From positions 122,949-186,948 of the forward strand of contig NZ_KI912407.1 in the NCBI RefSeq assembly GCF_000518245.1: 64,000 nucleotides of DNA, given 5' to 3'. The stretch comes from Brachyspira alvinipulli ATCC 51933 (GTDB lineage Bacteria > Spirochaetota > Brachyspiria > Brachyspirales > Brachyspiraceae). This document shows, in pieces, positions 5,175 through 21,377 of the stretch (positions within the stretch are counted from its first letter, which is position 1; each line of letters begins with the position of its first letter). The notes under the pieces are model-generated. The model saw nothing but the letters and a program-made list of their open reading frames with translations, was not told the DNA's origin and did not search any database. The position numbers were made by a program, and so were the translations under genes.

Positions 5175-6158
5175 TTATGATAATCTATGATTTATACTTC
5201 CTGATATAATTCTATCAATTTTACCGTCTTGAAATTCTGCTACAAGAGCAAAAGTTTTATCTATATCGAGAACCTTTACTATATGTTCTTCATTATGTAT
5301 ATTAAGCAAAACTTTTTTTCCTATTAAAAAAGAACGTTTTTTATATTCATCATAAAATGCTGCATTATTAAAATAGTATTCATACATTTTTTCTAATATT
5401 TTAGCTATCAAAATATTTCTTATATCTTTGTGATTTTCTGTATTATTAATTGAAACAGCTATATTATTAATCTCTTCAGGAAAACCATTTTTAGGAAAAT
5501 TAACATTAATACCTATTCCTATAACAGCATATTCTAATTTTCCGTCTTCAAAACTAAAAGCTCCTTCTGTAAGTATTCCGCATACTTTTTTATCATTTAT
5601 AAATACATCATTAATCCATTTTATCTGTGTGTTTTCATTTGAAATTTCTTCTATAGACTTTGACACAGCCATAGCCGCAGCAGTAGTGATAAATGAACTG
5701 TTAAAAATTTTTTTCTCTTTTTTTAGATTGAGTATGATACTCATATATATTCCTGTACCATAAGGAGAGAAAAAAGATTTTCCATTTCTTCCGTATCCGC
5801 TTGTCTGCTCTTCTGATAATACAACTGTTCCGCTTTCTGCTCCTTTTATTGCAAGTCCTCTAGCTATAATATTTGTAGATTCAACTGTTTTATATATAAT
5901 AAAATTAAACTTATCATCATATTTAGACATGTTATTTTTTATGATTTTTGATGATAAAATATCTGTGTCTATTGACATTACATATCCTTTATTAGATACT
6001 GCTTTAATGTCATAACCTTCATTTTTAAGAGATTTTATTGATTTCCAAACTGCAGCACGGCTTACATTCAAGCTATTTGCCAATTTTTCACCAGATATAT
6101 AAAGACCTTTATTTGATTCTAATATGGATATTATATCTTCTTTTATATTTCTACTCAT
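5175..6158 (-). CDS. birA: Bifunctional biotin-protein ligase / biotin operon repressor
   Basis: A group-II BirA of 327 residues. A winged-helix DNA-binding domain occupies residues 1-60, with recognition helix NVSRAAVWKSIKSL. The ligase domain follows, with the biotinyl-AMP loop GYGRNGKS (121-128), KWIND (180-184; the usual Pro is Ile) and KKVCGILTE. It attaches biotin to carboxylase subunits and should repress this operon when biotin is plentiful. It is the first gene of the operon and so represses itself. The ATG follows the -10 box by only six bases and has no Shine-Dalgarno sequence, which suggests a leaderless mRNA. No other in-frame start would keep the DNA-binding helix. Confidence 0.93.
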   Translation of the reverse strand: MSRNIKEDIISILESNKGLYISGEKLANSLNVSRAAVWKSIKSLKNEGYDIKAVSNKGYVMSIDTDILSSKIIKNNMSKYDDKFNFIIYKTVESTNIIARGLAIKGAESGTVVLSEEQTSGYGRNGKSFFSPYGTGIYMSIILNLKKEKKIFNSSFITTAAAMAVSKSIEEISNENTQIKWINDVFINDKKVCGILTEGAFSFEDGKLEYAVIGIGINVNFPKNGFPEEINNIAVSINNTENHKDIRNILIAKILEKMYEYYFNNAAFYDEYKKRSFLIGKKVLLNIHNEEHIVKVLDIDKTFALVAEFQDGKIDRIISGSINHRLS

Positions 6159-6164
6159 AGAAGT

Positions 6165-6217
6165 AGAATAACATATATTAAATAATTGTCAACCATAAAA
6201 ACATAAAAGGTTTACAA
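6165..6217 (-). promoter_or_regulatory. BirA operator overlapping the bio operon promoter
   Basis: Positions 6186-6217 read TTGTCAACC, 14 bases, GGTTTACAA. The two 9-base arms are inverted repeats matching at 8 of 9 positions and fit the bacterial BirA box (TTGTTAACC-N14/15-GGTTAACAA). Read on the minus strand, the proximal arm contains a perfect -35 box TTGACA (6187-6192). After 16 bases comes TATTCT (6165-6170) as -10. Repressor binding would therefore directly cover the -35 element. Confidence 0.88.
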
Positions 6218-6220
6218 TTA

Positions 6221-6541
6221 TTATATTTTCTTTTTTTCTAATAATAATTGTTTTTTTTTCAATTTATATTGAATTATAAACTCATTTATTTTTTCTTTAG
6301 CATCATCATTGAATACATTATCCAGTTTTTTATACATATCTTCAAATTTTTTTATTTCAAAATCCATTTTTGCCATTGCTTTTATCAAGGCAGAAGCTTT
6401 TTCCCTTCGGCATTGCGTTTCTATTTCCATAAGCCTTTGATATGAAGCTTTAATATTTTCCATAGCTTCCTTATACGCTTCATCTTTAGCTTTTGCCATA
6501 AATATATTTATAATATCATTAATTATAATGTCAGCCATCAA
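6221..6541 (-). CDS. Small charged coiled-coil protein, last gene of the dynamin operon
   Basis: 106 residues, not recognised by family. The sequence is almost entirely helical and highly charged, with heptad-like runs between residues 15 and 100 and a lysine-rich C-terminus. It has no signal peptide or membrane segment. It follows the 146-residue gene by 26 bases in the same direction, and the next downstream gene, birA, has its own promoter, so this is the operon's terminal gene. An accessory or scaffold role for the GTPases is inference from position. Confidence 0.7.
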   Translation of the reverse strand: MMADIIINDIINIFMAKAKDEAYKEAMENIKASYQRLMEIETQCRREKASALIKAMAKMDFEIKKFEDMYKKLDNVFNDDAKEKINEFIIQYKLKKKQLLLEKKKI

Positions 6542-6567
6542 TAATTTCCATTTATAATATTTAACAT

Positions 6568-7008
6568 TTAATCTGCTTTATCGAATTTGTCAATTTTATC
6601 TATAAATTGAATAATTATTTTAGAGAATTCATCTCCAGTAATATTTGAAGGGGCATGCTCGTAAAAGTCTTTCATCATTAATCTAACCACTTCCATTTTT
6701 TTTATAGTTTGATTAGTATCAGCTTCTTTTTTGGCAACATAAGCTTGGGCTTCTTTTATTAAATAATTACCTTTAGCATCTAATTCTCTAACTATTGCTT
6801 CAGATTGTGCTTTAATTTTTTGTATTGATACTATATCTGAAGCTATTTGAAGTATAGAGTCAAAATTATCAGCAGCAGCATTAATTAATTTATCTGCATT
6901 TTGTCCTTTAAATGCAACACTATTATTATCTTTTACTATTTCAGGATTAATAGCATCATCAATTTTTTTTATGCTTCTTGTGCTTTTTTTTAATTCAAAA
7001 TCTCCCAT
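6568..7008 (-). CDS. Coiled-coil protein in the dynamin operon
   Basis: 146 residues with no recognised domain. Residues ~45-110 form a long predicted helix (ADNFDSILQIASDIVSIQKI onward) with heptad character, and the C-terminal segment is acidic. It is soluble and has no export signal. Its start lies five bases after the stop of the upstream GTPase gene, so translation is probably coupled. A role as partner of the dynamin-like GTPases is likely from context only. Confidence 0.7.
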   Translation of the reverse strand: MGDFELKKSTRSIKKIDDAINPEIVKDNNSVAFKGQNADKLINAAADNFDSILQIASDIVSIQKIKAQSEAIVRELDAKGNYLIKEAQAYVAKKEADTNQTIKKMEVVRLMMKDFYEHAPSNITGDEFSKIIIQFIDKIDKFDKAD

Positions 7009-7013
7009 AATTT

Positions 7014-8798
7014 TTATGCTCCTATTTCATTTTTAATTCTTTCTACATTATCAAGTAATTCCATAGTTTCTTTTTCATTAGGAATTTCTTCTTCATATTC
7101 ATATTGACTAGAAAAATTATCAAAAATTTCTGTAATATTTTTTTTATTCTCTTCCCTAAGTTTTTCAAGATCTTTAATTATTGCAGGCTTAGCCTCTTCA
7201 TACCATTTTTCAACACCATCTTTAACTTTTCCTTTTAATTTAGATTTCCAAGTAGCATAATCGATAATCATAGAAGCTAATTCAATTACAACAGCAGCAG
7301 CAGCACCTATTGCCTTTGTAGATGTAGCTCCTATTTTTGATAGGAATTGTTTTAAAGCATTATGCGTAGATTTTGAGAAAGTTTTTCCAAAAATTTCTCC
7401 TATTTTCTTTAATAAATGAGAAGCAGCATTTGCAACACCTGCAGCAGCTTTTCCGGCACCGCCGTATTTAGCAAAATAACCTAATAATCCTTGATTAAGT
7501 ATTTTTTCTCCAAGTTTTTGTGCAATATTAATCTGTGCTTTATCCATAAAAGATGAAAATATTATTTCTATTTTACCAACAAATTGATTTATTACAGTGT
7601 TTAAATAATTTTCTAACTGCTTATCCAAATCTTCAAGTTCTATTGAAATATATCTTTGAACTTCAGATACTTCCTGTTTTATTGTAAATGGAAGTAAATG
7701 ACTATTAACATAAGCTATAGTCTCATCTTTAAGCATTCTGTCTTCAGCATCTATAGAAGAACATATTTTTGAATTTACTACAGGAATAACATCTTGAAGT
7801 TTTTTCTTAACATTATTAATAACTCTGTCAAATGTGCTATCTATCATTTCAATAGCTTTAGATTTCTTGTTTTTGAATTCTTCAATTTCTTTTTTTATAG
7901 CTTCTTTTTGTTCTCTATTTAATTTAATACTTTGATATCTTTTATTTACTTCAACTTCACATTGGTAAAATAAATCTAAAATAAAATTATTAAAATTATT
8001 TTTTAAAGCTTCCTGTCTTTCTTGAGAATGTATTTTTTCTTCTATATACTTCCATAATTCACAAGATTGAGGAAGAGGATAGTCTTCTGTTTGTATAGCA
8101 TTGATTATAAAATATTTAGGTTCATAATTTAGTATGTCTTTACCATATCTTAATATTTCTTTTATACGATTATCTTCTGCTGTTCTTCCCTCTGGTACTC
8201 TATTAATAACTATTGACACATCTACATCATTTCCTAAAAGTTCTTTTAAAAAATTTAGAAAAGTAAAGTCATTTTCCTGTATTCCTATTTTATAATTTAC
8301 AACATATATAACTACATCACTATTTGGTAAAAATTCTTTTAATACTTCTTCATGTTCAGAAACTATAGAATTATAACCAGGCGTATCAAAAAGCCTTAAA
8401 CCATTAAAATTATAATCTTTAATATTAGTTTGAAGTCTTAATCTTTCTAATTCTTTATCTGGATTTTTAGCAAGCTCATCAAAAGTTTCTTTATCTATAA
8501 TTTCCATTGTTGCATCTTTATTGATGGCATAGTATGATTTTTCTTTTGCTTCATTGTCTGATAATATTTCTATGATGCTTCCTGTAGAAGGAGATGAACT
8601 TACATACAAAATATTTTCCTGCATTAATCCATTTAAAATACTAGATTTTCCGCTGCTTGTTTCTCCTAAAAATACAACGAAACTATCCGGATTATCTATT
8701 CTGTTCTTTAGGAATTTGGCAAGAACTATTAATCTGCTGTCATTTATATTATTACATAGAGAATATACCAATTCCATTTTTTTTACTAATTCTTGCAT
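7014..8798 (-). CDS. Dynamin-like GTPase (third of the cluster)
   Basis: 594 residues from the preferred ATG at 8798, which has AAGGAG seven bases before it and begins one base after the upstream stop. An ATG at 8816 is possible but would overlap. The N-terminal GTPase domain has P-loop GETSSGKS (45-52), a Thr-rich switch, DTPG (138-141), and a degenerate G4 motif, INRVPEG (~198-204). A long helical stalk follows. A Gly/Ala-rich hydrophobic stretch at ~435-510 resembles the membrane paddle of bacterial dynamins, then a coiled-coil C-terminus. It probably remodels or tethers membranes on GTP hydrolysis. It shares architecture but little sequence with its two GTPase neighbours, suggesting a hetero-oligomer. 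Confidence 0.85.
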   Translation of the reverse strand: MQELVKKMELVYSLCNNINDSRLIVLAKFLKNRIDNPDSFVVFLGETSSGKSSILNGLMQENILYVSSSPSTGSIIEILSDNEAKEKSYYAINKDATMEIIDKETFDELAKNPDKELERLRLQTNIKDYNFNGLRLFDTPGYNSIVSEHEEVLKEFLPNSDVVIYVVNYKIGIQENDFTFLNFLKELLGNDVDVSIVINRVPEGRTAEDNRIKEILRYGKDILNYEPKYFIINAIQTEDYPLPQSCELWKYIEEKIHSQERQEALKNNFNNFILDLFYQCEVEVNKRYQSIKLNREQKEAIKKEIEEFKNKKSKAIEMIDSTFDRVINNVKKKLQDVIPVVNSKICSSIDAEDRMLKDETIAYVNSHLLPFTIKQEVSEVQRYISIELEDLDKQLENYLNTVINQFVGKIEIIFSSFMDKAQINIAQKLGEKILNQGLLGYFAKYGGAGKAAAGVANAASHLLKKIGEIFGKTFSKSTHNALKQFLSKIGATSTKAIGAAAAVVIELASMIIDYATWKSKLKGKVKDGVEKWYEEAKPAIIKDLEKLREENKKNITEIFDNFSSQYEYEEEIPNEKETMELLDNVERIKNEIGA

Positions 8799-8799
8799 A

Positions 8800-10578
8800 T
8801 TATTTCTCCTTGGCATTTAATGATTGTAAATAGTTAAGATCTTCTTGTAGCTTATTTAAATCATATTCTTGTTTGAAGTCTTTTTTTATAAGTTCTTCAT
8901 TCTCTCTTTTCATCTCTTTAAATTCTTTTTTTCTATCATCAACATAATCCTCTAGAGATTTTATAATAGCAGTATGCATATTATTAAAATTACCTGTTAT
9001 ATTATTTTTTATGCCGTCTTTGAATTCTTTGAAATAATCTTCTAATTCATCTTTTACTTCACTAGCTCTTTGTGCTAAAATTGCTTTTCTAGATTTAGAA
9101 CCAATAAATGCAGATATTAAACTTATAGCAGTACCTGCCAATAATCCTACTGCAGCACCTAAAGGTCCTCCAATAGCACCACCTATTGCCATTCCTGCAA
9201 ATACTCCGCCTACACTTCCTCCTATTTTTATACCGACATCTAATCCTTTTTCCCATTTGAATGATTGAGGTTTACTAAAACTCATATTATTAAATGAAAG
9301 TTTATAATCTTCATTGTTTATGATATCCGATAACTCTAAAATCTGTTTTTCAATTTCGAATCTAATACTTGTAAACTCATCTAATACAGCATTTGATATC
9401 TCAGAATAATAATCTCTTTGATAATCTTCAAATGATTGTGATAGATTAGGACCATCTACAACTCCTTGATCTATAATATTATGCATTTGAGATCTAAATT
9501 TACCAAAATATTCAACTGATATATTTTCAGCAAAATTACGTATAGATTTTTTTGCATTATTTAAATAATTTATAATGCTTTCTACCTTTTCTTCTATTTC
9601 TATATTCTGTTTTTTAAACTTATTTTCATTTTCTTCTAATTTTTCTTTTAATTGTTCATTACTGCCATTAACAGCTTCTATTAAATCTTTAATAGAATCT
9701 ACAGCAGATTTAATATAATTATTTAATCTTATATTAAAAATTTCTTCAGATTTTATTTTATTATCATGCGCAAAGTTTTCTAATTTTTTTAATAATACTT
9801 CGATATTAGATGATTTAATTTTTTCCTCGTCTTTATATATTCTTCCATAAGCTGCCTTATAAGCATTTACAACCATAATATCTTCTTTAAACTCTGTTTT
9901 TATTTTTTCAGCTATAGACTTTAAAATTTTTGTATTATAATCTATAGCTTCTTCTATCTCTCTTTTGTTCTCTCCAAATTCATTTTGTACAAAGATAACA
10001 TTTGTAAATATCTCCCATATAGATCTTATAAATACTTCTTCATGCCTTCTTATAGTTGGTGATGTAGGTATAACAAATAAAGCACATGATAAATTTTCTA
10101 TATATTTTTTTGTAGTCTTTTCATTGTTTTTAGTTAAACTTCCAACCCCCGGCAAATCAACTATAACAAGTCCATTTTTTAATATTTCAAGCGGTCTAAA
10201 AAGAACTATTTTTTCAACATTTTTTTCATTGCCATGATTATAATTATTATCAACATACTCTTTTAATTCATCCATAGTATGTACTATTTCAATCTTATCA
10301 GAATCAAAAAAATAAACTTCTGCTTTTTTATCTTCACCATATTTTACTTCCACAGGTACGCAAGTAGTTTCATCTGCTTCATTAGGAAGTATGTTTTCAG
10401 CAAGTATGGAATTAATTAATGTACTTTTTCCCATTCCCTGCATACCAAGTACTGGAACTATATCTTCTCTATTGTTAGAAATTTTGTTCTTTATTTCAAG
10501 AAGTTTTGTACCTAATTTATTTTCTTTAGAATAAAAATCTAATATATTTATTAATTTATCTTCTAATACTATATTCAT
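8800..10578 (-). CDS. Dynamin-like GTPase (second of the cluster)
   Basis: 592 residues. The GTPase domain shows GMQGMGKS (45-52), TTCVPVE as switch I near 71-77, and DLPGVGSL (141-148). The G4 motif is degenerate (VQNEFGENK). Helical stalk segments cover ~270-350, and a Gly-rich hydrophobic hairpin near 440-490 (e.g. GGSVGGVFAGMAIGGAIGG) suits a membrane-insertion paddle. The C-terminus is coiled coil. The start ATGA overlaps the stop of the upstream coiled-coil gene by four bases, a sign of translational coupling. The family is the bacterial dynamin-like proteins; the specific function is unknown. Confidence 0.85.
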   Translation of the reverse strand: MNIVLEDKLINILDFYSKENKLGTKLLEIKNKISNNREDIVPVLGMQGMGKSTLINSILAENILPNEADETTCVPVEVKYGEDKKAEVYFFDSDKIEIVHTMDELKEYVDNNYNHGNEKNVEKIVLFRPLEILKNGLVIVDLPGVGSLTKNNEKTTKKYIENLSCALFVIPTSPTIRRHEEVFIRSIWEIFTNVIFVQNEFGENKREIEEAIDYNTKILKSIAEKIKTEFKEDIMVVNAYKAAYGRIYKDEEKIKSSNIEVLLKKLENFAHDNKIKSEEIFNIRLNNYIKSAVDSIKDLIEAVNGSNEQLKEKLEENENKFKKQNIEIEEKVESIINYLNNAKKSIRNFAENISVEYFGKFRSQMHNIIDQGVVDGPNLSQSFEDYQRDYYSEISNAVLDEFTSIRFEIEKQILELSDIINNEDYKLSFNNMSFSKPQSFKWEKGLDVGIKIGGSVGGVFAGMAIGGAIGGPLGAAVGLLAGTAISLISAFIGSKSRKAILAQRASEVKDELEDYFKEFKDGIKNNITGNFNNMHTAIIKSLEDYVDDRKKEFKEMKRENEELIKKDFKQEYDLNKLQEDLNYLQSLNAKEK

Positions 10579-11216
10579 TTTTTTCTCCCAAATAAACGTT
10601 TATAAAATGGTAAAGATAAATACTCTAAAGTTTCTTCAAATTCTTTAATCTTTAGACTATATTCCTCTTTTGATTTTTCCATACAATCTTTAATGTATGA
10701 TATATCGGTTTCTAGCTTTTGTATTCTATTTTCTATATTTGAAGTTAATTCTATTTTTACATTTTCTATAAGTTCTTTATTTGAATCTATTTTACTGTTA
10801 ATATCTTCTCTTATATTATTTAATTCTGTATTAATAGTATTTTCCATATCTTTAATATTGTTTAATTCTGTATTAATACCATTTGCTATATCTTCTTTAG
10901 ATTTAGTAATACAATTTTCTAAGTAATTTTTATTTTCTTCTAAATCATTTTTGGAAAGTTCATTGCTTGCTTTATTCAATATATCTTTTATATTTTTATT
11001 TGCTTCTTCAAAGGCTTCTTCCAAAGTTTCTTTTATATTTTCTAATTTTCTATCTAATTTATTTAACTCATCTTCAAATGATAAATTTGAAATATTCTCT
11101 CTAATATTCTCTAGAACAGCTTTTTGATTTTCTATTTTTTCTAATATATCACTTGAAATATTTCTTTTTATATCTTCCATTAATTTCTTAGCAGTATTAT
11201 CTGCTCTAAGTATCAT
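10575..11216 (-). CDS. Long coiled-coil protein between two dynamin genes
   Basis: 213 residues, almost entirely helical. Repeated short units such as NTELNNI and KEDIANGI across residues ~70-190 suggest a continuous coiled coil. The C-terminus, YLSLPFYKRLFGRKK, is aromatic and basic and could touch membrane. There is no signal peptide and no recognised family. It overlaps the next GTPase gene by four bases. Its place between two GTPase genes suggests a bridging or adaptor subunit, like the helical partners in other bacterial dynamin pairs; this is inference. Confidence 0.75.
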   Translation of the reverse strand: MILRADNTAKKLMEDIKRNISSDILEKIENQKAVLENIRENISNLSFEDELNKLDRKLENIKETLEEAFEEANKNIKDILNKASNELSKNDLEENKNYLENCITKSKEDIANGINTELNNIKDMENTINTELNNIREDINSKIDSNKELIENVKIELTSNIENRIQKLETDISYIKDCMEKSKEEYSLKIKEFEETLEYLSLPFYKRLFGRKK

Positions 11217-11227
11217 AACATAACTCC

Positions 11228-13714
11228 TTATTTTCTTATTCTTAATATATTTGCTATATTATCAGAAACATTTTTATCTAAAAAAATACTATATTCTTTT
11301 TCTATTTCTCCTATAAGTTTTATCTCATCTTGAAGGTTTTTACATGGTTTTAATTGATGTTCTATAAATGATAAATTATATATAGGGTTTTCACTATTAA
11401 TAATTATAATAGATTTACAATTAGTAATTTTTTCTATTTCTTCTTTGAAATCTAAAATAGATGAAAGCATTTCTGTAAAACTATTACTATTTATAAGCTG
11501 TTCAAAGTCTTCTATAACTAAAAATAAAAAATTACTATTTGATAATTTATCAAGCAATTTTATATCTTTAATTTGTTTTTTATTAAATCCTATTTGAGCA
11601 TTAAGCATTAAATAAATATTATTATATCTATTAAAACTTATATTAATTTCATTAGGACTATATAAAAGGTTTAATGAAAAAGGTGAATCTTTTAATATAG
11701 AAGAAACATAATTTTTCATTTTATCATTAATTTCTACTATTTTATTAAAAAATCTTTTTATAAATAAACTTATAGATTGACTATCCCAACCTATTATCAT
11801 ATCATTTGCTTTATATATTTTTAAATGATTTAATAAGTTTTTCATTACTTCATCATTAAAGCTATATATAATGTATTCAGATAATAAAGAGAAATTATAT
11901 ATATAGTCATCAATTTCTATTTCTTCTAATGATATATTATTATCTTTCGTTGTTTCTTCTTTTTTTGATTTGTTGATATTGTTATGTTTTTTTAGACTTC
12001 TATAACCACGAAGTAAATTATCTAGTTCTTCTATTATAGATTTTGTTTCTTTTTGACTTAATAAGTTTTTTTGTTTATCTTCATAACTTCTTCTTTCTCT
12101 TTCCAATGCTAAATCAAATTGACCTGTTATAAATGAAAATTGATTATAATATTCTTCTATAGTTTTTGAATATATACTTTTTATCCTTTGTATATATTCT
12201 TTTATATTTTTCTCGGTTGCTTCCTTATTTATTTCTGTTTCATATTCTGTTATTTCTTCTTTTCCCCAATTATTATTACCCCAATCAAAAAATCTTGCTA
12301 CTCCAGCAAAAAATCCAGGTTTGTCTCTCCATCTTTTTACTGGTTTTTTATCTTTTTGTACTTCTAAATTATACTGTGATACATTAACTTGACTGAAAGT
12401 TATATCTCTAGGAGGTATATTTAATTCTTTTGATATATTTATCAAGAAATTATAATAATTTTTAATAGTTTCTGTTATACCTTTTTCAAAATTATGTGCC
12501 ATCTCTTTAGTTTTTTTTACTTTATCTTCTATATTCCCAGAGTTTAAACTAACATTTGTCATTTCAGATAAAGCATTAAAAAATATGCCTAAAAAGCTAG
12601 AAGAACTACTATTATTTTTATTAGCTGTATTGTTACTATTTAATGAATCATAACTAAATAAATTAAATAACTTTTCTATGTTATTATCAAAATCTTCTTT
12701 AGCTTTATTAATTTTAGAATCGTAACCTTCATATTGAAATTTGATATTATAATTAATTCCGCTTAACCTTTTTTTCTCATCTGATATTAATAAATCAAAT
12801 TTACTAATTATACTATCTATTCTTTCTTCATCTATATTAGGTTTTTTATCATTAACCAATTTATTAACATTAGAAACGAATTCATCAAATCTATCTTCAT
12901 ACTTTTTTTCAATATTTATGTTTTCTGTTTTTTTTCTTAATATAAGGATAGAAGATAATTGGCATATAACTACAGACTGTTTATCATTTATATTACTATT
13001 GTTAATTATTCTTATAAGTCTATTTTTATGTTCCAAAGCAACTTCATCAGCACTTTTTGTACCTTCTATATTAGGGAGCACAGAATCAAGCATATTTTGT
13101 ACTATAACAATAGGAATGTTTCTTGAAGCAATTTTATTTATAATTTCTCTAGTTTTATCATCACTATTTGTTTTTGTAGTTGTTACGTATATACATATAT
13201 CTATTGTAGGAAGTAAAGTATCTAATGTAAGTTCCTCATGATATTCTAAGCCGTACGCTTCTAATCCAGGACTGTCTATTAATTCTATATCTTTATCTAA
13301 ACTAAAATATGGTGTATATATTTCAAGGAATTCTACTCTGTTTTTATTATTTTCATTATATCGTTCATCATTATATTGTAAGATATTCTTAGGTAATACA
13401 TTATCATATTCTTTTTTTCTTCCATCATTAAAATATATGATTAACTTTTCATTATTCCCATAAAAACAACTTGTTATACTGCTTGAATTTGGTACTACAG
13501 CTGTAGAAAGTATTTGTTTTCCCATTATTGCATTAATAAGAGTAGATTTTCCGCTGCTTGTAATACCAATAATACCTACTCTTACCCTATTATTTCGCCA
13601 TTTTTCTTTTCTATTTTCAAGCCAAACAATATCTTCATTATACCTTTTTTTAACATTTGTATTTTTTGATAAAATTGGAATTATATTATTTATTAATTCT
13701 AATGCAGTAGACAT
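11228..13714 (-). CDS. Large dynamin-like GTPase, first gene of the cluster
   Basis: 828 residues. The GTPase core has GITSSGKS (50-57), NSSSITSC as switch I (~76-83), DSPGLEAYG (147-155) and a degenerate G4, VQNMLDSV. A helical stalk follows. Residues ~375-395 are Ser/Asn-rich, around a weak hydrophobic patch (SSFLGIFFNALSEM). The C-terminal ~200 residues form a separate domain with a run of beta-alpha-like segments (NFLFLVIEDFEQL, CKSIIIINSENP). No strong membrane hairpin is visible, unlike in the other two GTPases. The promoter lies directly upstream and leaves essentially no leader before the ATG. It should initiate expression of the six-gene operon. Confidence 0.85.
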   Translation of the reverse strand: MSTALELINNIIPILSKNTNVKKRYNEDIVWLENRKEKWRNNRVRVGIIGITSSGKSTLINAIMGKQILSTAVVPNSSSITSCFYGNNEKLIIYFNDGRKKEYDNVLPKNILQYNDERYNENNKNRVEFLEIYTPYFSLDKDIELIDSPGLEAYGLEYHEELTLDTLLPTIDICIYVTTTKTNSDDKTREIINKIASRNIPIVIVQNMLDSVLPNIEGTKSADEVALEHKNRLIRIINNSNINDKQSVVICQLSSILILRKKTENINIEKKYEDRFDEFVSNVNKLVNDKKPNIDEERIDSIISKFDLLISDEKKRLSGINYNIKFQYEGYDSKINKAKEDFDNNIEKLFNLFSYDSLNSNNTANKNNSSSSSFLGIFFNALSEMTNVSLNSGNIEDKVKKTKEMAHNFEKGITETIKNYYNFLINISKELNIPPRDITFSQVNVSQYNLEVQKDKKPVKRWRDKPGFFAGVARFFDWGNNNWGKEEITEYETEINKEATEKNIKEYIQRIKSIYSKTIEEYYNQFSFITGQFDLALERERRSYEDKQKNLLSQKETKSIIEELDNLLRGYRSLKKHNNINKSKKEETTKDNNISLEEIEIDDYIYNFSLLSEYIIYSFNDEVMKNLLNHLKIYKANDMIIGWDSQSISLFIKRFFNKIVEINDKMKNYVSSILKDSPFSLNLLYSPNEINISFNRYNNIYLMLNAQIGFNKKQIKDIKLLDKLSNSNFLFLVIEDFEQLINSNSFTEMLSSILDFKEEIEKITNCKSIIIINSENPIYNLSFIEHQLKPCKNLQDEIKLIGEIEKEYSIFLDKNVSDNIANILRIRK

Positions 13715-13721
13715 GTATTAG

Positions 13722-13749
13722 ATTATATCATAAAAAAAAATATAATCAA
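13722..13749 (-). promoter_or_regulatory. Promoter of the dynamin-like GTPase operon
   Basis: Minus-strand TTGATT (13744-13749), 16-base spacer, TATAAT (13722-13727). Seven bases separate the -10 box from the ATG at 13714, so RNA should start at or one base before the start codon. No Shine-Dalgarno sequence is present, which predicts a leaderless transcript. Confidence 0.65.
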
Positions 13750-13957
13750 CTTTTTTATATGTAATTGTACATTAAAAATCAAATCTATATGTATATAATA
13801 TATTCATTGCTTGTAAATTTAGATATAAACAGTATAGATTATATACAAGATTCAAAATAAAGTGTATTAATATTATACCATTAATTAGTTTTTAATTTTA
13901 CAAATATCAATAAAATAACAATTAATGTATTATTTTAATACTAAAAATCAAATTTTA

Positions 13958-14040
13958 TTGGTACAATTCTTGCATATATATTAGTGTAGCGATGATAAAA
14001 ACTTAAAAAAGTTACAAAATATATAAAGATGCTACATTAA
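13958..14040 (+). promoter_or_regulatory. Candidate sigma-54-type promoter and leader hairpin of the hsp20 pair
   Basis: In the 366-base gap before the first hsp20 gene, 13958-13974 matches the -24/-12 pattern, TTGGTAC then five bases then TTGCA, with GG and GC at the correct 12-base distance. Two conserved positions differ. Ten-base arms TTAGTGTAGC (13981-13990) and GCTACATTAA (14031-14040) are inverted repeats with one mismatch around a 40-base loop and would fall in the 5' leader. No CIRCE element is present. The remaining AT-rich sequence (13750-13950) shows nothing I can assign. Confidence 0.35.
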
Positions 14041-14080
14041 ATGAAATTAGAAATATAAAAGTTAATAAGGAGTTTTAACT

Positions 14081-14503
14081 ATGACTAAAAACATATTTTT
14101 ACCAGCTTTACATACTATATTAGATGATTTTAGAGGTTTTGATGAAGCATTTAATGGCTTATACAATAGTAATGAAATAAAAAGAGCATGCCACTATAAT
14201 ATAGAAGAAAATGATAAAAACTACTCTATAGAAATAGATATGCCTGGAGTAAAAAAAGAAGATTTAGAAATAGGTATAAAAGAAAATGTATTATCTATTT
14301 CTGCTAAACGCAAAAAAACAGTAAAAACAGAAAATGGAGAATCCAAAGAAGAAATCATATCAAGCTATGAACAAAGCTTTAATGTAAGCACAAAAGGTAT
14401 TGATATAGAAAATATAGAAGCTAACTTAAATAATGGAGTTTTGACTATAGCTCTTCCAAAAAAAGAAGAGATTAAATATGAGAAAAAAATTAATATAGCT
14501 TAA
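14081..14503 (+). CDS. Small heat-shock protein, Hsp20 family
   Basis: 140 residues with an alpha-crystallin domain from about residue 42 to 135. It includes YSIEIDMPGVKKEDLEIGI and the C-terminal GVLTIALPKK (the family GVLxIxxPK motif). It acts as an ATP-independent holdase for unfolding cytosolic proteins. AAGGAG precedes the ATG. The N-terminal tail, which starts KNIFLPALHTIL, is shared with the downstream paralogue. A possible sigma-54-like promoter and a leader inverted repeat lie upstream. Confidence 0.93.
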   Translation: MTKNIFLPALHTILDDFRGFDEAFNGLYNSNEIKRACHYNIEENDKNYSIEIDMPGVKKEDLEIGIKENVLSISAKRKKTVKTENGESKEEIISSYEQSFNVSTKGIDIENIEANLNNGVLTIALPKKEEIKYEKKINIA

Positions 14504-18173: not shown

Positions 18174-18956
18174 ATGTTTAGCATTAAAACACATTTCATA
18201 AAAATAGTATCAATAATAATTCTTCTATTATCCTTACTATCATCAAGTTTGTTTGCAGAAATAGATTTTAATTTGATTATGCCGTTTGGGTATAATTTCA
18301 CTTTCTCTGATGCAAAAATCACAGAAAGTTATATTTCCTTAATATCTTTAAAAAATACGGATTATTATGAAGTCGGCGTACAGTCTCAAATAGGATATAA
18401 TTTTGATACAAAAAATAGTATTTTTAAAAGTATAAGTATAATGGCTGAAATAGGATATCAATTATCCCCAATGTCAGTATCTTATAATAATTCCTACAGC
18501 GAAGTTACAAACAATATATTATTTCACACTTTACATATAGGATTAATTCAAAAATTCTATGTGCTTGACAGATTATCATTCGGTATAGGAGGCGGAATAA
18601 GAATACCTTTTTCTGCCGATGTTAAAGTATACGGAGATGATTTAAGATACCCGCCTATTCCAACTAATAATGGAAAATATGATTATAGTTATATAAAATC
18701 TTTATTCAACAGCAGAGTTATTCCATATATAAAATTGACTATGGACGGATATTATTTCTTTAATGATTTTGTTTCTTTGATTATAGGTCTTTATATCACA
18801 TACAGTATGGATATGAACTTTAATACAGATAAATTGAATTCCGCTTTTCGCACTGCATATTATCATAACTACTCATATTCATCTATAGGTGCGGGTATTA
18901 ATATAGGTTTATCCATTGGAAGAAAAGGAAGCAATGAAAGAAAAATAATTGAATGA
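18174..18956 (+). CDS. Outer-membrane beta-barrel protein, paralogue 1 (type A)
   Basis: 260 residues with an N-terminal signal peptide (hydrophobic run IVSIIILLLSLLSSSLFA, cleavage near LFA-EI). The rest is alternating aromatic/hydrophobic strand-like sequence typical of a small outer-membrane barrel. Shared family blocks are IDFNLIMPFG just after the signal, FHTLHIGLIQKFY, GIGGGIRIPFSADV and VIPYIKLTMDGYYFF. It closely resembles paralogue 3 (type A). The function is unknown; surface exposure is likely. It is the first gene behind a consensus promoter. Confidence 0.8.
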   Translation: MFSIKTHFIKIVSIIILLLSLLSSSLFAEIDFNLIMPFGYNFTFSDAKITESYISLISLKNTDYYEVGVQSQIGYNFDTKNSIFKSISIMAEIGYQLSPMSVSYNNSYSEVTNNILFHTLHIGLIQKFYVLDRLSFGIGGGIRIPFSADVKVYGDDLRYPPIPTNNGKYDYSYIKSLFNSRVIPYIKLTMDGYYFFNDFVSLIIGLYITYSMDMNFNTDKLNSAFRTAYYHNYSYSSIGAGINIGLSIGRKGSNERKIIE

Positions 18957-18978
18957 TTAACTTAAAGGTTATTATTTT

Positions 18979-19728
18979 ATGAGAAAGTATTTAAAATACA
19001 TTATACTTATTTTTATTTTTTATAATAATGTTTTTGCAGGCATAGATTTTTCTTTATTTGTACCTATTGACGGAAATGTATCTATTTTAAATAAACGTAT
19101 AAATACTCAAGATCATTTAAGAAATATATATGAATACGGATATTGGAGTGCGGGCGTTCTTTCTGAAATAGGATATAATTTTAAATTTGATAATAAATAT
19201 ATTAATAGTTTAAGTATAGTAGGAACTATCGGATATATGGCTTCAACACTTCCTATTGAAGTTAGTAAAGAACTAATCGGAAGATTTTATGAAGTTACAT
19301 TTTTACATACATTAAATACAGGAGCTTCAGTAAAAATCATTAATAATATAACTAATTATAATCTTTCTTATTCTATAGGATTAGGAGGAGGAATAAAAAC
19401 TCCGTTTAGCGGAAATGTTATAAGTCAGCTGGCTGCTGCAGATGAATCTGTTTTAACAGGAAAAGAAGAATATAATTTCAGCGACATAAAAAAAGTATTT
19501 AAAAGCGTTGTTATACCATATATAAAACTTGATGTTAATTTGTATTATCATTTAACTAAAAATGTATCATTTATGGCAGGACTTTATTTTAATTATAACT
19601 TTGCTTTTAAATACAATACTGATTATATAAATAATTTTGCAGGTGTAAAAGTATTTGATAAATTGGAAGCTTCCAGCTTTTCTATGGGAGTATCTTTGGG
19701 ATTTGCTATAAGGGATAATGGGTATTAA
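18979..19728 (+). CDS. Outer-membrane beta-barrel protein, paralogue 2 (type B)
   Basis: 249 residues with a signal peptide ending near VFA-GI. Barrel blocks are GIDFSLFVPIDGN, FLHTLNTGASVKI, GLGGGIKTPFSGNV and VIPYIKLDVNLYYHL. The blocks LHTLNTG and ESVLTGKEEY ally it with paralogue 4 rather than with its immediate neighbours (type B). It starts 22 bases after paralogue 1, in the same direction, with AAGG upstream. Probably surface-located; role unknown. Confidence 0.8.
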   Translation: MRKYLKYIILIFIFYNNVFAGIDFSLFVPIDGNVSILNKRINTQDHLRNIYEYGYWSAGVLSEIGYNFKFDNKYINSLSIVGTIGYMASTLPIEVSKELIGRFYEVTFLHTLNTGASVKIINNITNYNLSYSIGLGGGIKTPFSGNVISQLAAADESVLTGKEEYNFSDIKKVFKSVVIPYIKLDVNLYYHLTKNVSFMAGLYFNYNFAFKYNTDYINNFAGVKVFDKLEASSFSMGVSLGFAIRDNGY

Positions 19729-19731
19729 TTT

Positions 19732-20535
19732 ATGAGAATTATAAGAAATATTATTATTATACTAACTATAAACTGTTTTAATATATTTGCTTTAAATATA
19801 GATTTTAATTTATCTATACCTATGGGAGCAAATTATGACTTTTTAAATGTATCCATAGACGAAAATATGCTTCTGGCTAATTCTCCTATAAATCCTATAC
19901 CCAGAACATCATTAAAAAGCGATTTTGCATTTGAAATAGGAGTTTTGGCACAGCTTGGATATAATTTTAAATTGGAAAACAGTGTGTTAAAAAGTACAAG
20001 CACTATGATTGATTTTGGGTATTATTTATATCCTATGGCTGTTAATTACAATCAAAGCATATTAGGAAATGAAGAAGTAAAAACAGTTATAACATTTCAT
20101 ACTATAAATATAGGCGGTATTCAAAAATTTTATTTAGGCAACAATTTTGCTGTAGGTTTAGGTGGCGGAGTTAAAATACCTATGTCATATACATTCAATA
20201 ATATAGATTCAAAAATAAATAATCCTCTTCCGCAGGATAATAAAGGAAACCGTGATTATATAAAAACAATTTATGACAGTAAAGTAATACCTTATGTTAA
20301 ACTTACATTAGAAAGCTTCTTCTTTTTCACTGATAATATAGCAATTAATTTGGGAATGTATGTTTCATATAATATAGGTATGAATTACAATGTATATAAA
20401 TTAAATACCGATATCGCCAATGCCAATAATACTGCAAATGAAAGATATTATAATAAATTTAATTCATCATCTTTGGGTGTAGGGTTTATATTAGGAGCTT
20501 CTTTCACAAGAGTTAATCCTAAACTGCAAAATTAA
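19732..20535 (+). CDS. Outer-membrane beta-barrel protein, paralogue 3 (type A)
   Basis: 267 residues with a signal peptide ending near IFA-LN, followed by IDFNLSIPMGANY. The type A blocks FHTINIGGIQKFYLG and VIPYVKLTLESFFFFTDN match paralogue 1. It starts three bases after the stop of paralogue 2, so translation is probably coupled. Extra low-complexity loops (NTDIANANNTANE) near the C-terminal third may be surface loops. Function unknown. Confidence 0.8.
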   Translation: MRIIRNIIIILTINCFNIFALNIDFNLSIPMGANYDFLNVSIDENMLLANSPINPIPRTSLKSDFAFEIGVLAQLGYNFKLENSVLKSTSTMIDFGYYLYPMAVNYNQSILGNEEVKTVITFHTINIGGIQKFYLGNNFAVGLGGGVKIPMSYTFNNIDSKINNPLPQDNKGNRDYIKTIYDSKVIPYVKLTLESFFFFTDNIAINLGMYVSYNIGMNYNVYKLNTDIANANNTANERYYNKFNSSSLGVGFILGASFTRVNPKLQN

Positions 20536-20546
20536 TAATTAAAAAA

Positions 20547-21377
20547 ATGGAAAATAAAAAAATGAAAAGAGCTATTATTTATATTTTATTATTTATTTTA
20601 TCTGTTTTTAACAGCAGCAGACTTTTTGCAGGTATAGAAATTGATGCATATATTCCGTTTGGTATAAATGAAACAGATATTAACAGCACGGTAAAAAATA
20701 AAGATTATACAGAGAATTCATTTAAAAAGTTTTATGATGAAATTGCAGCAGAAACAGGAATTTTAGTAAGAGGCGGTTATAATTTTGATTTACAAACACC
20801 TATAATAGACAGCTTAAGTTTAATGCTTGATATAGGCTATTATATGTCGCCAATATCTATATCTTATGTACACTCACTTATAGGAACAATATCTGAAACA
20901 ACTTTGCTTCATACATTAAATACAGGGCTTGCATTAAAATTATATTTTTATGCTCCTATAATAAATCTTTACTACTCCATTACATTAGCAGGAGGAGTAA
21001 AAACCCCATTCGGCGGAAATGTTTTAAATAACAGTGCTTTAGGAAATGAATCTATACTATCTGATAAAGATGCATACGGATACAGAGATATAAAAAACTT
21101 ATTTAAAACTCCTGTTATAGGCTACTTAAAATATAATGTTGATTTTTATTATATGCTTACAGAAAAAGTATCAATTATGTACGGTCTTTATCTTTCTTAT
21201 GATTTCGGAATGAGCTATAATACAGAATTTTTAAATAATCATTTAAAATATTATGAAGTACCTCCTCTAATTCAGTCTCCGATATTCGGTTCTATGAGCT
21301 ATAATAATTTAAGTGTAGGCATTTCATTCGGGCTTTCTTTCGGAAAAACTCATCCTAAAGTGAAGTATGGATATTAA
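20547..21377 (+). CDS. Outer-membrane beta-barrel protein, paralogue 4 (type B)
   Basis: 276 residues. The signal peptide ends near LFA-GI, followed by EIDAYIPFGINE. Type B blocks LLHTLNTGLALKLYF, GGVKTPFGGNVLNN and ESILSDKDAY match paralogue 2. It starts 11 bases after paralogue 3. The second in-frame ATG (residue 6) is an equally plausible start. Function unknown. Confidence 0.78.
   Translation: MENKKMKRAIIYILLFILSVFNSSRLFAGIEIDAYIPFGINETDINSTVKNKDYTENSFKKFYDEIAAETGILVRGGYNFDLQTPIIDSLSLMLDIGYYMSPISISYVHSLIGTISETTLLHTLNTGLALKLYFYAPIINLYYSITLAGGVKTPFGGNVLNNSALGNESILSDKDAYGYRDIKNLFKTPVIGYLKYNVDFYYMLTEKVSIMYGLYLSYDFGMSYNTEFLNNHLKYYEVPPLIQSPIFGSMSYNNLSVGISFGLSFGKTHPKVKYGY

Follow-up and report, generated by a model that had tools for sequence, protein, structure and literature searches.

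A dynamin is an unusual thing to find on both sides of the living world as a weapon against viruses. The family is one of the rare ones to take part in antiviral defence in animals (Mx, GBP and IRG proteins) as well as in bacteria (DynA and Eleos), and how the bacterial members arrest phage is little understood. In a stretch of 64,000 nucleotides from Brachyspira alvinipulli ATCC 51933 (hereafter "the window"), three different dynamin-like GTPases are encoded in one operon, interspersed with three small proteins. What does a bacterium do with three dynamins and their partners? A sequence-only reading of this DNA had proposed a complex for membrane remodeling, envelope repair or defence against phage. 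In this report, we found that the locus is a real, portable and conserved six-gene cassette. Judging from the genome context of its relatives, we lean toward the view that it is a membrane-acting anti-phage system.

Architecture of the operon

Six close-packed open reading frames, separated by short gaps or overlapping, occupy positions 6221-13714 of the minus strand and are arranged in the transcription order A-B-C-D-E-F (Table 1); all lie where the sequence-only reading had placed them. Three encode dynamin-family GTPases (A, C and D) and three encode small proteins (B, E and F). For gene D, a Shine-Dalgarno sequence (AAGGAG) precedes only the inner of the two candidate ATG codons, making the 594-residue product that had been assumed earlier the better choice.

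Table 1. Positions of the six genes and associated features in the window.
Feature	Position	Strand	Description and basis
Gene A	11228..13714	-	828-aa dynamin-like GTPase; mitofusin/BDLP-like GTPase and stalk at ~1-586, C-terminal alpha/beta domain at ~600-828
Gene B	10575..11216	-	213-aa coiled-coil protein; lies between A and C in other loci; alignment
Gene C	8800..10578	-	592-aa BDLP-like, LeoBC-like dynamin; Pfam, PADLOC, BDLP1 profile and model
Gene D	7014..8816	-	600-aa LeoA-like dynamin (probable start 8798, 594 aa); most conserved member
Gene E	6568..7008	-	146-aa small helical protein; HMM matches in six-gene loci only
Gene F	6221..6538	-	105-aa small coiled-coil protein, start ATG at 6538; alignment
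Putative sigma-70-like promoter, TTGATT-16-TATAAT	13722..13749	-	Sequence and scan; weak, not enriched over shuffles
Extent of inserted cassette	6220..13790	.	Empty-site comparison with L126, L127 and L129

The operon had also been credited with a single leaderless promoter, a proposal that we can sustain only in part. The element TTGATT-16-TATAAT ends 7 nt before the start codon of A, and no Shine-Dalgarno sequence precedes that gene. Because no ribosome-binding site lies between the element and A, a leaderless message starting from it is plausible. However, promoter-like elements are common by chance in DNA this rich in AT: we counted 57 such sites in the region, no more than in shuffled sequence (mean 68.8).

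Elsewhere in the window (18174-21377), four consecutive open reading frames encode proteins of 249-276 amino acids, at least three of which fall into one sequence cluster. One begins with a signal-peptide-like stretch, and together they are perhaps a tandem family of envelope proteins.

The dynamin-family proteins

All three large proteins match the Dynamin_N family (PF00350) well above its cut-off of 27 bits (A, 67.5; C, 84.0; D, 77.9). Motifs G1 to G3 are intact in each, with a P-loop, a G2 threonine or serine and a DxPG sequence, and they are kept across the family. Motif G4 has degenerated, furthest in C and D, yet it is conserved within each of the three protein families: QNMxD in A, QNKWN or QN(E/N)F in C, and N(M/R)CP in D. 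The combination of P-loop and D-x-P-G with a degenerate G4, first read from the window copies, is thus a property of the whole family. Profile comparisons relate both C (7e-31) and A (1e-18) to Nostoc BDLP1, and D to IniA (2e-8). Structure models of moderate confidence extend this likeness. Along its entire length, the C model (mean pLDDT 66) aligns to BDLP (Z 20, 511 residues), CjDLP1 and IniA (Z 22), and residues 1-586 of the A model (mean pLDDT 63) align to mitofusins, BDLP and IniA (Z 18-23).

The sequence-only reading had named the lack of a dynamin stalk or paddle as a finding that would refute its proposal, and the proposal withstood this check. A long helical stalk appears in the models of A (1-586) and C; for D, the coverage of the LeoA profile points to one. 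Hydropathy analysis revealed a glycine-rich hydrophobic paddle segment in every C protein that was checked (near residues 450-495 in the window copy) and a hydrophobic segment in most D proteins (near residue 500 in the window copy), although the D protein of L103, a shorter locus of the kind described below, does not have it. In A, hydropathy analysis found no paddle. While C and D are both of the BDLP type and have a predicted membrane paddle, A has instead a predicted alpha/beta domain in its last 230 residues, with conserved W-D, N-x-Q-x-G and N-P-x-Y motifs. No relative of this domain was found among Pfam or PDB sequences, and the fold search barely covered it; the domain may still prove to have a known fold.

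The small partner proteins

In alignments, B consists of conserved ends that flank a variable coiled middle; an acidic D-x-T motif marks the N-terminus, and an aromatic/basic tail, P-x-Y/x-KR-x-F, marks the C-terminus. In a Pseudobutyrivibrio locus (L061:12239-13123), the orthologue of F is fused to an LRAT (lecithin retinol acyltransferase) domain (PF04970, 3e-22). The H, H and NCEHF residues of the LRAT family are kept in this domain, and we take them to be an apparently intact catalytic triad. We also considered E and F as relatives of one another. Their faint profile similarity (E-value 0.023) is too weak for that conclusion, though they are possibly distant paralogues.

Conservation and distribution of the cassette

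Nine other loci, from Clostridia, Lachnospiraceae and Paenibacillales, carry this set of six genes in an identical order, making ten loci in two phyla. One is on the plasmid pART37 of Paenibacillus sp. 37, whose products are 27 (A), 34 (C), 39 (D), 26 (E) and 26% (F) identical to those of the window, with 21% for B at an E-value of 0.002. Others are in Anaerovirgula multivorans, a Pseudobutyrivibrio MAG and a Lachnospiraceae MAG; three came from a search of Clostridiaceae (L099, L101 and L119; the A gene of L119 is split), and L120 and L154 complete the set. In L154, B was assigned by its position and coiled-coil character, as it does not match the B profile. A shorter A-B-C-D form, without E and F, occupies about 20 Clostridium-family loci (in one of them, L102, B was not recognized). 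A and B therefore accompany C-D throughout, and E and F do so in ten loci.

Recurrence of the order in these distant genomes, at nine further six-gene and about 20 four-gene loci, places the arrangement beyond chance, and we reject the notion of a local oddity. Scattered homologues that never co-localise had been named as the finding that would tell against the operon; the homologues are in fact always co-localised. The gene number and order were, as had been suspected, unfamiliar: our literature search, in which the Eleos papers were covered incompletely, found no earlier description of the six-gene cassette.

Carriers are sparse. They amount to 1 of 29 genomes of the host family, 1 of 397 and 2 of 392 genomes in other searches, and 23 of 206 Clostridiaceae, mostly with the four-gene form. 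Neither C nor E has a homologue of this type in the 28 other genomes of the host family. In 296 genomes from the spirochaete phylum, a search yielded dynamins that stand alone or are built differently, together with a 54-residue relic (see below), and no second full set among the loci examined. We thus rejected the idea of a spirochaete-specific feature; the set is a mobile accessory cassette. A phage-borne origin was likewise considered, but in searches of viral contigs, phage records and plasmids the sole carrier was pART37.

Unrooted trees of both C and D split the six-gene from the four-gene form with full support. In Clostridium, the four-gene form is apparently chromosomal and partly syntenic. 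Five of the four-gene Clostridium loci (L103, L104, L113, L115 and L117) are preceded, at a distance of one or two genes, by a gene for a protein of about 205 residues that falls into no known family; the L103 copy has no match in Pfam.

Insertion site

The operon is a clean insertion of about 7.57 kb between birA and hsp20. In three congeners (L126, L127 and L129) the site is empty, with birA and hsp20 adjacent and approximately 365-380 bp apart. On the left, homology to the congeners gives out at the stop codon of F (~6219-6224), and on the right it begins again at ~13790-13854; the insert thus comprises the operon and about 75 bp. It contains no integrase or transposase. The GC content of the operon is 24.2%, against 28-29% in its flanks. 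Patchy distribution and transfer as a unit, two signatures of defence systems, are therefore both evident.

Two further observations concern the genus. A fourth congener, L125, has an unrelated TPR-repeat gene in the birA-hsp20 gap (window 6158-14081), so the site tolerates insertions. Further, 54 residues of A survive in genome G001 (L046:10756-10968). They share 61% identity with the window protein and are encoded elsewhere in the chromosome, with thiamine-type genes on one side and an aroB-like gene on the other. We read this remnant as the trace of a second acquisition and loss.

Defence genes near the relatives

We scanned the flanks of the eight other six-gene loci then available with PADLOC, using 14 four-gene loci and random stretches as controls. 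Matches to PADLOC families numbered 270 for the six-gene loci, 6 for the four-gene loci and 67, scattered, for the random stretches. Scored by hand, established defence genes or WYL regulators flank five of the eight six-gene loci and none of the 14 four-gene loci (p = 0.002); established defence genes alone flank 3/8, against at most 1/25 (p = 0.04). WYL regulators, which co-localise with phage defence systems (PMC9122601), are found at half of the eight loci.

The defence-island company of these relatives is varied. L060 is flanked by DISARM and Gabija-like genes (DrmB, a C5 methylase, OLD and UvrD) as well as a WYL regulator, and L061 by a WYL gene directly upstream and type III Cas10/Cas7-type genes downstream. 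UzuA lies directly upstream of L120 (7e-79), accompanied by a DUF2357-PDDEXK nuclease. Near L045 are a putative phage abortive infection domain (AbiC), a KAP NTPase and a UvrD (GajB-like) helicase. A WYL regulator and a DNA methylase accompany L101. L119 is set among serine recombinases and a split gene that, from its sequence and the PADLOC tally, appears to be WYL-like. A GajB-like helicase is encoded upstream of L154, a locus identified afterwards. The window locus itself stands alone between biotin and heat-shock genes, with no defence gene beside it.

At L060, the GajA-like (OLD nuclease) gene of the adjoining Gabija-like system is split into two open reading frames (L060:12232-14226). 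This system may thus be inactive, and we infer that the two GajA matches in the tally come from the split gene. An assignment of Gabija at L045 was withdrawn, as the 947-residue protein encoded upstream of the GajB-like helicase has no PADLOC match.

Function of the cassette

The case for an anti-phage function is built on several features. The six genes keep their order in ten loci and two phyla, their distribution is patchy, and the window copy is a clean insertion with a lower GC content than its surroundings. Defence genes and WYL regulators flank the six-gene loci but not the four-gene ones. C and D match LeoBC and LeoA in the order of Eleos, a single dynamin (DynA) protects Bacillus populations (PMC8844932), and the F protein of L061 carries an LRAT domain. 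Other facts count against this reading: the defence association derives from eight hand-scored loci, the window locus has no such neighbor, searches of phages and viral contigs brought up no relative, the LRAT fusion occurs in one locus only, and the models of A and C are of moderate confidence. The membrane or anti-phage complex proposed at the outset is thus supported as a hypothesis, the anti-phage part of which draws on genome context.

The main rival takes its model from the role proposed for DynA under antibiotics: the three dynamins would survey the inner membrane and reseal it when damaged or stressed, and any relief from phage would be a side effect. Its best argument is the four-gene core, which is chromosomal, partly syntenic in Clostridium and away from defence genes, and which for these reasons could be a membrane-maintenance machine. 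DynA indeed works in membrane surveillance (PMC8844932), and the window copy adjoins hsp20 stress genes. The latter surroundings, however, are a mere insertion site, given that congeners have hsp20 without the operon. Nor would a housekeeping role predict that the remaining family genomes in the sample lack the cassette, and the defence genes and WYL regulators near the six-gene loci also speak against it. We regard membrane repair as possible, but on the doubtful side.

The mobility of the cassette invites another thought, namely that it serves an element rather than its host by maintaining a plasmid or other element or by blocking incoming elements other than phage. One copy resides on pART37, that of L119 lies among serine recombinases, and the window copy is an insertion. 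Yet the conserved unit has no integrase, replication or partition gene, and most copies appear to be chromosomal; such a function seems improbable to us. We deem it quite improbable, too, that the operon assists vesicle release or secretion. This role was proposed for LeoABC in enterotoxigenic E. coli, where loss of LeoAB lowered vesicle-associated secretion (PMC4159319). C and D are similar to LeoBC and LeoA, but secretion genes were not noticed near the loci. Further, most carriers are Firmicutes-type bacteria, which generally have no outer membrane.

In our best reading, the anti-phage system is built around an Eleos-like core, to which a third dynamin and three conserved partners have been added. 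C and D would pair up as membrane-embedded dynamins, after the manner of Eleos and the Campylobacter DLPs, and they would assemble on the inner membrane when phage disturb it. A, lacking a paddle, would act as a soluble mitofusin-like GTPase whose orphan C-terminal domain senses or gates this assembly. The coiled coil of B could tether the components to one another, and E and F could link assembly to an effect on the lipid bilayer; in the L061 relative, this effect would be built into F as an LRAT acyltransferase/phospholipase-like domain. The membrane might thereby be sealed or disabled, and phage release delayed or aborted. The known anti-lysis action of DynA (PMC8844932) shows a membrane-acting defence mechanism to be possible. 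A bolder version would see in the cassette a new class of bacterial immune machine. Three dynamins with non-redundant roles would join one coiled-coil ruler and a pair of small adaptors in a membrane-remodeling complex that detects phage damage through the C-terminal domain of A and directs its output at lipids (by LRAT in one lineage). We offer this version tentatively and think it rather unlikely to be correct.

Nature has provided a dissection of this cassette by retaining it with and without the E-F pair, which suggests the parts that convert a membrane machine into a defence system. E and F may have brought about this conversion from a membrane-maintenance machine. The LRAT fusion, in turn, points to lipid modification as a concrete biochemical output.

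Comparison with known dynamin systems

In PADLOC, the best match of D is LeoA (84.7 bits, model positions 97-544 of 559) and that of C is LeoBC (61.9 bits, positions 122-563 of 601). The E. coli order is leoC-leoB-leoA, and LeoC and LeoB represent one split dynamin (PMC4159319); C-D therefore stand in the order of Eleos. The likeness to LeoABC and Eleos pointed out by the sequence-only reading is accordingly right for these two genes, though the sequence matches listed for D did not include 4AUR, the LeoA crystal chain. Beyond the two adjacent dynamins that it shares with Eleos (LeoBC and LeoA), the cassette has four more conserved genes: that of the dynamin A with its orphan domain, that of the coiled-coil protein B and those of the small proteins E and F. 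We do not file it as Eleos, because the constancy of A and B beside C-D, and of E and F in ten loci, defeats a two-gene definition.

Bacillus DynA, which protects populations by delaying lysis (PMC8844932), is related through the dynamin family; its profile matches D with 53.9 bits and C with 33.5 bits. In DynA, however, two dynamin halves are fused into a single polypeptide of about 1190 residues, whereas A, C and D are separate single-GTPase proteins with partners. Nostoc BDLP1/2, Campylobacter DLP1/2 and mycobacterial IniA/IniC have the fold of C and D and a paddle like the one predicted for these two, but occur as pairs or single genes without A-B-E-F partners.

The premise that bacterial dynamins come singly or in pairs proved too narrow. 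Differently built operons with three dynamins in tandem were found on an E. coli plasmid (L141), on a Lysinibacillus plasmid (L143) and at L047 and L059. Their proteins differ in size from A, C and D and resemble them weakly, and no homologues of B, E or F were recognized; the L141 operon ends with a CFI-box protein of 829 amino acids. These four operons may be further undescribed dynamin systems.
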